From Microcaldota archaeon (GTDB lineage Archaea; Micrarchaeota; Micrarchaeia; Micrarchaeales; Micrarchaeaceae): a stretch of 64,000 nt of DNA. Positions within the stretch are counted from its first letter, which is position 1. Each line of letters begins with the position of its first letter. The position numbers and the translations under genes are program-made. Positions 6,107-56,217 of this stretch are shown here, piece by piece. The notes under the pieces were generated by a model. The model was not told where the DNA came from. It saw only the letters and a program-made list of their open reading frames with translations, and searched no databases. The DNA lies in contig JAGWHO010000005.1 of the NCBI GenBank assembly GCA_028866715.1, forward strand, positions 1 to 64,000, read 5' to 3'.

Positions 6107-7114
6107 ATGGCATTAGGCTTTAAGTTCGGAGGGTTGAACAAGTCAAAGGAGCAGATAGCGGAGACAGCGAAGGATCCGACGCTCATATTGCAACTCACAA
6201 AGGACATTAAGGTATACATCGACGAGAGCGCAGAAGATTGGTTCAAGAGACTCTCGCACAACTTGAGCGTGTCAGCAAACAACATGAATGCGATACGCAT
6301 CACAGGCCCGGGAAGGCTTATGGCGAATACGAGCATGGCTTACGGCATGGGCGGCGTTTCAGGCGTGGCATTGCAGCATCTGACAAGCCCTGGCTTTAAT
6401 AGCGGGTCGAAGCTCGGGCCGTCAGGCGGCCAAAAGAAGGGAAGGCCAGAGATGATGGCAAACTCCTTTGAGCTCACCACCAACGAGGTGAGGGCGATGC
6501 TGGGCCTCAAGAAGCAGGTAGAAGGCATATACGATCACAACTATTCTGAAAACATACTGAGAGGCGCAGAAAAACGTGATCAGGAGATGCTCAGAACCGG
6601 CGCAGTGCTTGCTCCTGACCGGCCCGACAACTTGTACAGCAACGTGCTCATGACAAGGATATTACACAACCCGTTCCCGGAGCTCGAAGCCAAGAACTTT
6701 GTCAGCGACGTCGGAATACTTATAGGGCTCGCCCTAGAGGGAAAGAAATTCAAGCTTAGGATTGCGACGATAGAGTCCCCAATAGACATGTATGATTTCA
6801 AGCAGGTGAAAGGACCAAGCGCAAAGTCCATGGCGAAGGTAATATTTGGCGGGAGCAGCAAAGACCTCGACTCCGGGTACGCTCTCAAGCTGCGCACCGG
6901 ATTCAAGGAGACGGCAAACGTATCCGAGTTTACAGTCCCATTCGGCGACAAGGACGACAAGAAGAACGGTGTAGACATAGAGAGGATAACTGGCAATTTC
7001 GTAGCGCATGCGCAGCCGATGATCAACGAGTCGTATGCAAGATACTTCAAGCCAACCGAAGACAAGAACAAGCTTGCGTTGACCGACGATGTGCTGAAGA
7101 TTATCAGGGCCTGA
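6107..7114 (+). CDS. hypothetical soluble protein downstream of the VirB4-like gene
   Basis: 335 residues with no membrane segment and no recognised motif. The N-terminus MALGFKFGGLNK is followed by mixed helices, a low-complexity Gly/Ser/Met stretch (about 85-125), and a beta-rich C-terminal half. The ATG at 6107 is preferred over 6083 because a TATA box (TATAAATATA, 6070s) sits about 30 bases upstream. It therefore has its own promoter, whose flank CCCATAGATACAT resembles the leader in front of the zinc-ribbon gene at about 2070. That resemblance hints at co-regulation with the transfer-like cluster. Confidence 0.55.
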   Translation: MALGFKFGGLNKSKEQIAETAKDPTLILQLTKDIKVYIDESAEDWFKRLSHNLSVSANNMNAIRITGPGRLMANTSMAYGMGGVSGVALQHLTSPGFNSGSKLGPSGGQKKGRPEMMANSFELTTNEVRAMLGLKKQVEGIYDHNYSENILRGAEKRDQEMLRTGAVLAPDRPDNLYSNVLMTRILHNPFPELEAKNFVSDVGILIGLALEGKKFKLRIATIESPIDMYDFKQVKGPSAKSMAKVIFGGSSKDLDSGYALKLRTGFKETANVSEFTVPFGDKDDKKNGVDIERITGNFVAHAQPMINESYARYFKPTEDKNKLALTDDVLKIIRA

Positions 7115-22317: not shown

Positions 22318-23342
22318 CCAGGGTTCCAGCTTATTGCCTTGTAGTCGTTCTTGTTGTCGAGGCTTCTCACCGGCAGGCTGCCCAGCAACACCTCCTTGAG
22401 CTCTCCGTGGGCCATCCTCACGTTGTATCTCTTGAACAGCTTCTTGTGATAGCTTATGCCGTGCTTCTGCGCGCTCTCCATGCTGTCGAACGCGCCGATG
22501 CCGAAGAAGTCGTAGCTGCCGATCAGTGGAGCTGTTATGAGATACCTGCTCACCATAGGGTTGTCGTCGTCGCTCGTGAATGCCCTTCTCGCTTCGGCTG
22601 ACGCCTTCTCGTAGCCCTCGCTTGGCGTGTACTTGCTGAAAAATGCAACGAACGACATGCCCTGCGGCATGCCTATAGTTGCGGTGAACCTGTCTATGTA
22701 GCTCATCTTCTTCAGGTTGTTGAAGTTGTATGCCGCAGTGTTGAAGTTCATGTTGAGCTCTTTGGATATGTCCTGGAACGACATCCTGGAATCCCTGTTC
22801 AAGAGCTTGAGCATCGGCTTGTACTTCTCTGGCATCGTGCTCTTCTCTATGATCTCGCTTCTCAGTGGGAAGAATCCTAGCTGCCTGTGCGCCACCTCGC
22901 TCGGCTGCCATGATGGTTTGTATTTCGCGAGCATCATGCGCATGCTTCTGTCCCAATGCGCGTACTCTTTTCCTGTTTTGGCATTCGCATATATTATCAT
23001 CTGCTCGGACCCTTTCATAGTCACCGCAAGCTGCGGTATATACGAAGAGTGGAGCATCTCCTTTATCTTCGCGTAATCCGGCTTGCCGTCGAACTTCACG
23101 AGTATCAGGTGCGGATTGTTGAGCCCGAGGTTCGCCTCGTTGAGCTCAAGCGTGTACTTGAGGCCCGATTCAGTCTCAAGTTTCTTGAGCCTCTCGGATA
23201 TCGTCCTTCTCGATATTCCGAGCGCGTTAGACATCTCCGATATGGATGCGCGGGAGTTCTCCGAGAGCAGCCTGAAGATTTTTCTTGTTATCGGGCTGTA
23301 CCTCTCGTGGAACCTGCTCTGCACCTCGAAGCCGTACTCCAT
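22311..23342 (-). CDS. Lrp/AsnC-like regulator with two HTH units
   Basis: 343 residues. An N-terminal winged helix, IFRLLSENSRASISEMSNALGISRRTISERL, is followed by a ligand-domain-like region. A second HTH lies near residue 180, LLNRDSRMSFQDISKELNMN, with its own effector-like half. This duplicated layout is seen in archaeal Lrp-like proteins. It probably senses a small molecule and regulates neighbouring genes; the divergent EamA permease across a 54-base gap is the obvious target. The start lies about 26 bases behind a TATA-like box, so the mRNA is probably leaderless. Confidence 0.75.
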   Translation of the reverse strand: MEYGFEVQSRFHERYSPITRKIFRLLSENSRASISEMSNALGISRRTISERLKKLETESGLKYTLELNEANLGLNNPHLILVKFDGKPDYAKIKEMLHSSYIPQLAVTMKGSEQMIIYANAKTGKEYAHWDRSMRMMLAKYKPSWQPSEVAHRQLGFFPLRSEIIEKSTMPEKYKPMLKLLNRDSRMSFQDISKELNMNFNTAAYNFNNLKKMSYIDRFTATIGMPQGMSFVAFFSKYTPSEGYEKASAEARRAFTSDDDNPMVSRYLITAPLIGSYDFFGIGAFDSMESAQKHGISYHKKLFKRYNVRMAHGELKEVLLGSLPVRSLDNKNDYKAISWNPGE

Positions 23343-54943: not shown

Positions 54944-54989
54944 TGGGGCAAGCCATACATATCTTGCCATGGTTACCTACTATGATTGC

Positions 54990-55301
54990 ATGGCAAAGAT
55001 ACACGTTGCTAAGAAGTCAGATTTCCCTGCAGGGACCATGAGGATGGTGAAGCCGGAAGGGCATGACGAGATACTCGTAGCCAATGTTGGCGGAAATTTC
55101 TACGCCATGCGCGGGCTGTGCCATCATGAAGGAGGACCGCTCTGGGAAGGGCAGCTGGACAACAACACCGTAATCTGCCCGTGGCATGGCGCCCAGTGGG
55201 ACGTGACTACAGGCAAGCTGATAGAGTTCCCGCTTGACCTTGACCCGGAGCCAACGTACAAGGTCGTGATAGAGGGCGACGACGTTTACGTCGAAGCCTA
55301 G
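54990..55301 (+). CDS. Rieske-type ferredoxin
   Basis: 103 residues of a soluble Rieske [2Fe-2S] protein. The ligands are C44-x-H46 in GLCHHEGG and C63-x-x-H66 in CPWHGAQW. It resembles the small ferredoxins of the NirD/dioxygenase type, with no membrane anchor. It would carry electrons to an unidentified partner. An ATG at 54969 is rejected as it lies too close to the TATA-like ACATATCTT; MAKIHVAKK starts at 54990. Confidence 0.92.
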   Translation: MAKIHVAKKSDFPAGTMRMVKPEGHDEILVANVGGNFYAMRGLCHHEGGPLWEGQLDNNTVICPWHGAQWDVTTGKLIEFPLDLDPEPTYKVVIEGDDVYVEA

Positions 55302-55345: not shown

Positions 55346-55356
55346 GGTATATATAT
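55346..55356 (+). promoter_or_regulatory. TATA box of the metallothionein-like gene
   Basis: GGTATATATAT lies about 27 bases ahead of the expected transcript start, near 55380. GTGAT at 55381 then serves as ribosome-binding site four bases before the TTG start. Confidence 0.5.
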
Positions 55357-55388
55357 CTCGGGAGGCGTAAGTATAGCAACGTGATTAT

Positions 55389-55535
55389 TTGGCAAACCAG
55401 GGAGCAGGCGCAGGCTGCGAGTGCGGCGGCGGCTGCATATGCGGATGCACAGGAGGCTGCACCTGCAAGGAAAATTGCGACTGCGGCTGCACGTGCGCCG
55501 AGAGAAGGAAGAACAGTGATGAGGCAGAAGAATAA
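55389..55535 (+). CDS. metallothionein-like cysteine-rich protein
   Basis: A 48-residue protein starting at a TTG. Eleven cysteines lie at 10, 12, 16, 18, 20, 24, 26, 30, 32, 34 and 36, mostly as CxC pairs spaced by Gly and Thr, with no aromatic residue and no His. The tail is charged (AERRKNSDEAEE). That pattern is typical of metallothioneins, which bind several Cu+, Zn2+ or Cd2+ ions in thiolate clusters. It has its own TATA box and GTGAT. A 96-residue gene follows 11 bases later. The alternative of chance coding is weakened by the codon-perfect CxC spacing and the promoter. Confidence 0.72.
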   Translation: MANQGAGAGCECGGGCICGCTGGCTCKENCDCGCTCAERRKNSDEAEE

Positions 55536-55546
55536 TCTGTGAGAAT

Positions 55547-55837
55547 ATGGCATACAAGTCGATAGAGTTCAAACCGTCGGCAGAGACAGACAGGGAGATC
55601 AAGCGCCTGTGCGCGGACTACCGCATCGCAACGCCGATGATCATGATGTTGGCGGCAACGTTCAAGAGCGACCAGGAGGCGCAGACAATCATAAAGCTGA
55701 TACGGGAGGCGCGCCCAGACAACGTAGACCTAATCAATCTCCACTTAAGCGTGTTCAACCGCGACATAGACGGGCTCAAGGAGTGCATACTATCCGGCAA
55801 GCTTGCCGATACCATCAGGGCGTCCAAGCGGGAATGA
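55547..55837 (+). CDS. hypothetical helical protein, partner of the metallothionein-like gene
   Basis: 96 residues, helical: SAETDREIKRLCADYRIA, then DQEAQTIIKLIREA and DGLKECILSGKLADTI. Two cysteines occur (RLCA and KECI). No motif is recognised. It starts 11 bases after the metallothionein-like gene, with GTGAG ahead, so they probably share one transcript. A role in metal handling is possible from position only. The end converges on TFS. Confidence 0.6.
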   Translation: MAYKSIEFKPSAETDREIKRLCADYRIATPMIMMLAATFKSDQEAQTIIKLIREARPDNVDLINLHLSVFNRDIDGLKECILSGKLADTIRASKRE

Positions 55838-55849
55838 CAGGTTCGGCAT

Positions 55850-56107
55850 TCAGGACATGAACCCTTCGCGGCTGTTGTGGCCGCACCTTATGCACTTGAA
55901 CAGTCCTGTGGCATCTTCATCTCCTTTTGTCATCGCGTGGAATAATACAATAGCCTTGTCGCAGCCGCACTTGCTGCACGTGTGCTCGACCCAGCCTTTA
56001 TACTCGCCCTTGAAACCGCAGATCTTGCACTCTATTATTACGGTGTCATTCTCTTCCTTGGGATGAAGTATTATCCTGCAGTTAGGGCAGATTGGCGTGC
56101 GCTCCAT
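55850..56107 (-). CDS. tfs: transcription elongation factor TFS
   Basis: 85 residues from ATG 56107. Two zinc ribbons: N-terminal CPNC with CKIC, as in RpoM/Rpb9, and C-terminal CSKC with CIRC. Between the last two pairs lies the T-K-G-D-E-D-A segment, the acidic loop that stimulates RNA cleavage in TFIIS and TFS. It rescues backtracked RNA polymerase. The start lies about 25 bases behind AACCTTTTATC, so the message is leaderless; the start at 56134 is rejected. Confidence 0.88.
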   Translation of the reverse strand: MERTPICPNCRIILHPKEENDTVIIECKICGFKGEYKGWVEHTCSKCGCDKAIVLFHAMTKGDEDATGLFKCIRCGHNSREGFMS

Positions 56108-56217
56108 GCTCCCACGATAGGGGTTCTCAGGCAACCGATAAAAGGTTTACCATCATATACAAAGGTATATATACTTTTACTGAAGTAAACAATAGCATTA
56201 CGGCATAGGCGGTCGTA

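Follow-up and report, generated by a model that had tools for sequence, protein, structure and literature searches.

The window analysed here, a 64,000-nucleotide stretch of the 0.88-Mb, 94% complete genome of a Candidatus Micrarchaeota archaeon, encodes at positions 55389 to 55535 of the forward strand a 48-residue Cys-rich protein that belongs to a so far unnamed, strictly conserved metallothionein-like family in Micrarchaeota and to none of the named metallothionein families tested. Conservation is decisive for the reality of the gene. Judged by its sequence, the protein probably works as a metallothionein, that is, as a stand-alone, cytosolic protein that would hold one 11-ligand metal-thiolate cluster.

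Translation of the frame, which opens with TTG, gives (L/M)ANQGAGAGCECGGGCICGCTGGCTCKENCDCGCTCAERRKNSDEAEE, with 11 Cys within 27 residues (10 to 36, encoded at 55416 to 55496) in the order CxCx3CxCxCx3CxCx3CxCxCxC and with neither His nor aromatic residues. The earlier note had singled out this composition, which the translation bears out and which lies beyond the chance level: the best 27-residue stretch held 6 to 8 Cys when 20 order-1 Markov sequences as long as the window were examined. We regard Cys density as suggestive and not decisive, because a second stretch in the six-frame translation of the real window, unrelated to this gene, reaches 10 Cys in 27 residues. In every one of the 38 copies that were compared the Cys frame is open, and each of the other five frames is interrupted by stops in 6 to 20 of them. 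Since only the Cys frame is always open, we consider the overlapping ORF that starts with GTG (55381 to 55542) to be spurious.

The family alignment comprises 37 distinct members of 41 to 60 residues, with 10 or 11 Cys (11 in 36 of the 37), a Cys content of 22.6% overall and CxC motifs throughout; the Cys block holds 0 to 2 aromatic residues and lacks His in 33 members. Ten of the Cys residues (C10, C12, C16, C18, C24, C26, C30, C32, C34 and C36) are invariant in 37/37 members, C20 is Cys in 36/37, and the exact spacing found in the window is kept in 35/37. The divergent copy L091 (positions 6311 to 6436, genome G141; MANKSGKGCKCGASCECGHGSGRCMCTYANCDCGCNCGEKI) has a His aligned to C20, a call that depends on the alignment as there is a one-residue loop insertion nearby. 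His is the other usual soft-metal ligand besides Cys, so that 11 potential ligands are kept in this member as aligned. Conservation extends to residues other than Cys, with N3, G7, E11, G13, G14 and R39 present in 36 and Q4 in 35 of the 37 members; the N-terminus reads MANQGxGxG, and conserved basic residues (R39, R/K40) directly follow the cluster. Relatives differ from the window copy by a dN of 0.09 to 0.30 and a dS of 0.66 to saturation (dN/dS about 0.03 to 0.43 where measurable), and both Cys codons as well as Gly synonyms are used at conserved positions. The gene is thus under purifying selection.

A first search returned clear homologues (63–81% identity) from the same family and order as the host. 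A profile search with a threshold of E <= 0.01 then matched 41 of the order's 164 genomes, 38 of them strongly (E < 1e-15) and the others being G141, G138 and G030. The earlier note had proposed looking for the Cys pattern in related genomes, and strict conservation was found there, with the strong matches in 38/164 genomes of the order. These carriers span two families and 18 genera, roughly one in four of the order's sequenced species, and two genomes (G055 and G080) carry two copies each. G141 holds a divergent true member and G138 decayed copies, whereas the weak matches in G030 and G227 were judged to be chance, as no family-like Cys-rich frame was found in either. Across the whole phylum (301 genomes), the only further match was marginal and judged chance, and the profile search detected no convincing homologue in the 137 other genomes of the phylum. 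A scan of contigs from about 85,000 species, which needs short exact peptide seeds, gave no matches outside Micrarchaeota, and the close public relatives were all Candidatus Micrarchaeota. No match pointing to a plasmid, phage or viral origin was found.

The start codon is TTG in the window, ATG in most relatives and GTG in L070. We consider the TTG assignment right because the relatives start there by homology and the conserved ANQG follows directly. An intact copy in G092 (L073, 6302 to 6451) has as its first aligned codon apparently ATA, not ATG, GTG or TTG. The earlier note had also credited the gene with its own TATA box and ribosome-binding site. A TATA-box-like element is present at 55348 to 55356 (forward strand), some 26 nt before the point, at about 55378, where transcription is expected to begin, and may serve as the promoter. 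The ribosome-binding site, for which no coordinates had been offered, needs more care. The most obvious motif, GGGAGG at 55360 to 55365, lies about 23 nt upstream of the start codon, after the TATA box but before the expected start of transcription; the usual archaeal distance from TATA box to transcript start would place it upstream of the transcript, and we rejected it as too far from the start codon. A better candidate is the Shine-Dalgarno-like GTGAT at 55381 to 55385 (forward strand), the 3' part of GGAGGTGAT, located at −8 relative to the start codon; the same motif also occurs at −8 or −9 in L079, L081 and L091. In several relatives (L075, L083–L085 and L089), a TATA-like element lies 26 to 31 nt before the ATG, a distance that would fit leaderless transcripts. 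The copies in L052, L061 and L072, which follow close behind another gene, have GGAG-type sites instead.

The genomic surroundings of the gene vary from lineage to lineage. Just upstream in the window (54969 to 55301, forward strand) lies a gene for a soluble Rieske-type [2Fe-2S] ferredoxin (Pfam Rieske, E 1e-17), and the reverse strand at 55850 to 56134 encodes a 94-residue double zinc-ribbon protein that resembles transcription factor S (TFIIS ribbon) and scores far below the NCBIfam TFS cut-off. The earlier note had proposed that a conserved-looking helical gene follows in the same transcript. This did not hold: the ORF concerned (96 residues, 55547 to 55837, forward strand, 11 nt downstream) is an orphan without a match, at the sensitivity of the search, in the 163 other genomes of the order, and no neighbour is common to the family. 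Its Pfam match to RanBP1 (E 0.033) fails the cut-off and was discarded. Comparison of the loci of 40 relatives revealed at least 15 different contexts, which recur in one genus or in related genera and not family-wide, and no constant partner gene; we therefore rejected a conserved operon. According to Pfam, the flanking genes include those for an EamA transporter, a SIMPL domain protein, an amidohydrolase, a HerA-like ATPase, isocitrate dehydrogenase, UbiA, eRF1, pyruvate dehydrogenase E2/E3, an HtrA-like protease, ScpA and tRNA synthetases. In one genus, an EamA-type transporter gene lies 13 to 15 nt upstream of the Cys-rich gene (L052, L072 and L081), and a gene of the same cluster is found beside or near it in L078 and L069.

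The gene is gained and lost as a single cassette, as exemplified by the junction between pyruvate dehydrogenase E2 and E3. In G064 and G065, which belong to one genus, and in G022, from another family, the Cys-rich gene sits between the E2 and E3 genes (L060, L065 and L068, compared with L096 and L097), and the distances at the junctions range from an overlap of 4 nt (−4) to a gap of 50 nt. The congener G066 has a collinear pyruvate dehydrogenase operon in which E2 and E3 are adjacent and the Cys-rich gene is absent, and G067 carries about 1.7 kb of other DNA at the same junction. E2 is found in 135/164 genomes of the order, so that gain and loss of the Cys-rich gene do not depend on the enzyme. 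Other copies are located near E2 (L069) or E3 (L063 and L088). Two decayed copies that contain stops and Cys-to-Tyr replacements lie next to each other in G138 (L093, contig C61, about 22430 to 22740), of the same genus as G141, and the copy in G083 (L080, 2363 to 2515) has an in-frame TAA in the Cys block, being either a pseudogene or an assembly error. If they are not assembly errors, the decayed copies of G138 and the in-frame stop of G083 show loss in progress.

The earlier note had read the protein as metallothionein-like. This reading stands as the best explanation by anatomy, since the Cys pattern is strictly conserved and the protein combines dense CxC motifs, small spacers and a lack of core residues; membership of the SmtA/BmtA family (PF02069) does not stand. 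Metal binding, the identity of the metal and the physiological role are proposed from the sequence. The metal-free chain would be unstructured and would fold around a single metal-thiolate cluster of 11 Cys ligands. The AlphaFold prediction for the protein, with a pLDDT of 64 and a pTM of 0.39, is too weak to inform on its structure. As eleven ligands equal those of the vertebrate metallothionein alpha domain, about four Zn or Cd ions per protein, or roughly six to eight Cu(I), would be expected. The Gly-rich spacers, which resemble those of Cu-thioneins, weakly hint at Cu as the metal. Location in the cytosol is suggested by the lack of a visible signal peptide. We rejected a secreted disulfide-rich peptide, the N-terminus (MANQGAGAG) being not hydrophobic by eye and 36/37 members having 11 Cys: the odd Cys number, the CxC packing and the lack of a hydrophobic leader all argue against a secreted disulfide protein.

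In the cell, such a metallothionein could buffer and detoxify soft metals that enter in metal-rich, often acidic habitats, and its gene would be gained or lost as a cassette according to need. The varied contexts without a constant neighbour are as expected of a self-sufficient protein. It counts against this reading that the gene lacks a metal-responsive regulator or transporter as a constant neighbour. Two carrier metagenome-assembled genomes bear the names MAS1.bin30 and FK3.bin49. The codes in these names match those of acid drainage sediment samples taken at two mines, Maanshan (iron) and Fankou (Pb/Zn) (PMC7779479), and the two carriers, by this match of codes, appear to come from these sites. 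Such an origin would support a role in metal stress, with the proviso that non-carriers may share those places. Co-occurrence with the heavy-metal P-type ATPase TIGR01525 was not significant (25 of 39 carriers versus 69 of 125 non-carriers, Fisher p = 0.36).

The near-invariant N3, Q4, G7, E11, G13, G14 and R39 are not obviously needed by a passive metal sponge, and together with the lack of correlation with the ATPase they leave room for a partner-specific metallochaperone. Such a metal-handling adaptor would carry a Cu or Zn cluster, dock through MANQGxGxG and the C-terminal ERR on a specific partner and deliver the metal there. Consistent with this proposal are the near-invariant residues other than Cys found at each end of the cluster and the co-directional, tightly spaced arrangements with pyruvate dehydrogenase E2/E3 (L060, L065 and L068) and isocitrate dehydrogenase (L071 and L074). 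We nevertheless consider it rather improbable, given that no partner gene is constant across lineages, that the gene is patchily present (38/164 genomes) although E2 occurs in 135/164, and that 11 Cys are far above the number in known chaperones such as CopZ, which use far fewer. A combined form, in which a metallothionein-type 11-ligand cluster is joined to MANQGxGxG as an invariant recognition N-terminus, would be no passive sponge but a metal carrier docking on a partner, which might be a lipoyl or iron-sulfur enzyme of central metabolism; this form, too, is rather improbable.

A structural role of the metals has a lower probability still. The cluster might hold the fold of a nucleic-acid- or protein-binding module, as in eukaryotic CXC or pre-SET Zn3Cys9 domains, with the conserved Gly, Glu and Arg residues doing the work. 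R39 and R/K40 right after the cluster and the conserved N-terminus would suit such a module, and there is a precedent in that Zn3Cys9 clusters are known from metallothioneins as well as from the CXC domain, which binds DNA (PMC3447885). The Micrarchaeota proteins resemble these domains in their compact Cys-rich cluster and conserved basic residues. They depart from the CXC superfamily consensus, CX[C/H]X2-13CX4-7CXCX5-60CX2-4CX1-2CX2-15CXN (PMC3447885), which none of the 37 members fits, even when the terminal Asn is dropped. No Pfam CXC or pre-SET match was obtained at E <= 10, and a hydrophobic or aromatic core is absent.

It is very unlikely that the Cys residues serve as electron or sulfane-sulfur reservoirs in a thiol-redox or persulfide buffer, for example near lipoamide dehydrogenase, and not as metal ligands. 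A Cys-rich chain and the position of the gene in G022, G064 and G065, where E2 and lipoamide dehydrogenase (E3) flank it, would agree with such a buffer, but coordination geometry is indicated by the exact spacing of the 11 Cys and by the His replacement, most copies do not lie near redox genes, and the congener G066 has the same operon without the gene. More remote still is a ribosomally made, modified peptide precursor with MANQGxGxG as leader and the Cys block as core: the peptide is indeed short, with a conserved N-terminus and a Cys-rich body, but the supposed core is invariant while the tail varies, the reverse of the usual pattern; no radical SAM protein, YcaO or peptidase/transporter recurs among the neighbours scanned, and no NCBIfam Cys-rich peptide family matched. 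A spurious ORF in GC-rich sequence, as the other 10-Cys stretch and the overlapping GTG frame might suggest, is refuted by strict conservation in 37 members, synonymous variation at Cys and Gly, and the one frame that is always open.

There are good descriptions of metallothioneins from eukaryotes and from some bacteria, and hardly any from archaea. The phrase "archaeal metallothionein" was not found in the literature searched, in which a single, unrelated paper names metallothionein together with Micrarchaeota and which yielded nothing relevant on the proteome of a cultured Micrarchaeon. With its clean and strict conservation, the family in these archaea with reduced genomes offers a directly testable archaeal metallothionein and, as a single small gene able to come and go in tiny genomes, a likely metal-tolerance cassette. 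Annotation may miss this gene because it encodes fewer than 50 residues and matches no family model.

Among known systems, neither the Pfam, NCBIfam and PHROG families nor PDB chains gave a significant match to the protein, and we attribute PDB profile matches to a conotoxin and to osteomodulin (E 0.48 and 1.8) to noise from Cys composition. The only metallothionein model touched was Metallothionein family 5 (PF02067), by one member at chance level (E = 3.3). The bacterial SmtA/BmtA/PmtA proteins (PF02069, Metallothio_Pro) are similarly small, cytosolic, Cys-rich and single-domain, with about 50 residues, and SmtA has about 11 metal ligands in total, Cys plus His counted; ligand counts for SmtA-type proteins differ slightly in PMC12193353, which also lists the CxC motif. 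CxC repeats with Gly or small spacers typify metallothioneins. The archaeal ligands, in contrast, are all Cys and stand in another order, and no smtB-type neighbour was seen. We excluded membership of PF02069, as 17 members gave no match at E <= 10 and there is no conserved His and no zinc-finger-like part; the model also found nothing in the host genome G000 or 20 relatives, and matched the positive control Synechococcus elongatus.

The fungal Cu-thioneins of the Neurospora crassa and Agaricus type (26 residues, 7 Cys) share with the family CxC repeats separated by Gly or other small residues. The fungal spacers are small Gly/Ala ones, and the published fungal arrangement is X2-[CXC]-X5-[CXC]-X3-[CXC]-X2-C-X3 (PMC4755600). 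The archaeal protein differs in having 11 rather than 7 Cys, a conserved N-terminus and a basic tail, and none of the 37 members shows the fungal spacing CXC-X5-CXC-X3-CXC-X2-C. The vertebrate alpha domain binds four metals through eleven Cys ligands (M4Cys11). It differs from the archaeal protein in its Cys order, in the CC pairs that the latter lacks and in the absence of a Pfam match, but the presence of eleven Cys ligands in one domain suggests an equal four-metal capacity, a likeness that is likely convergent.
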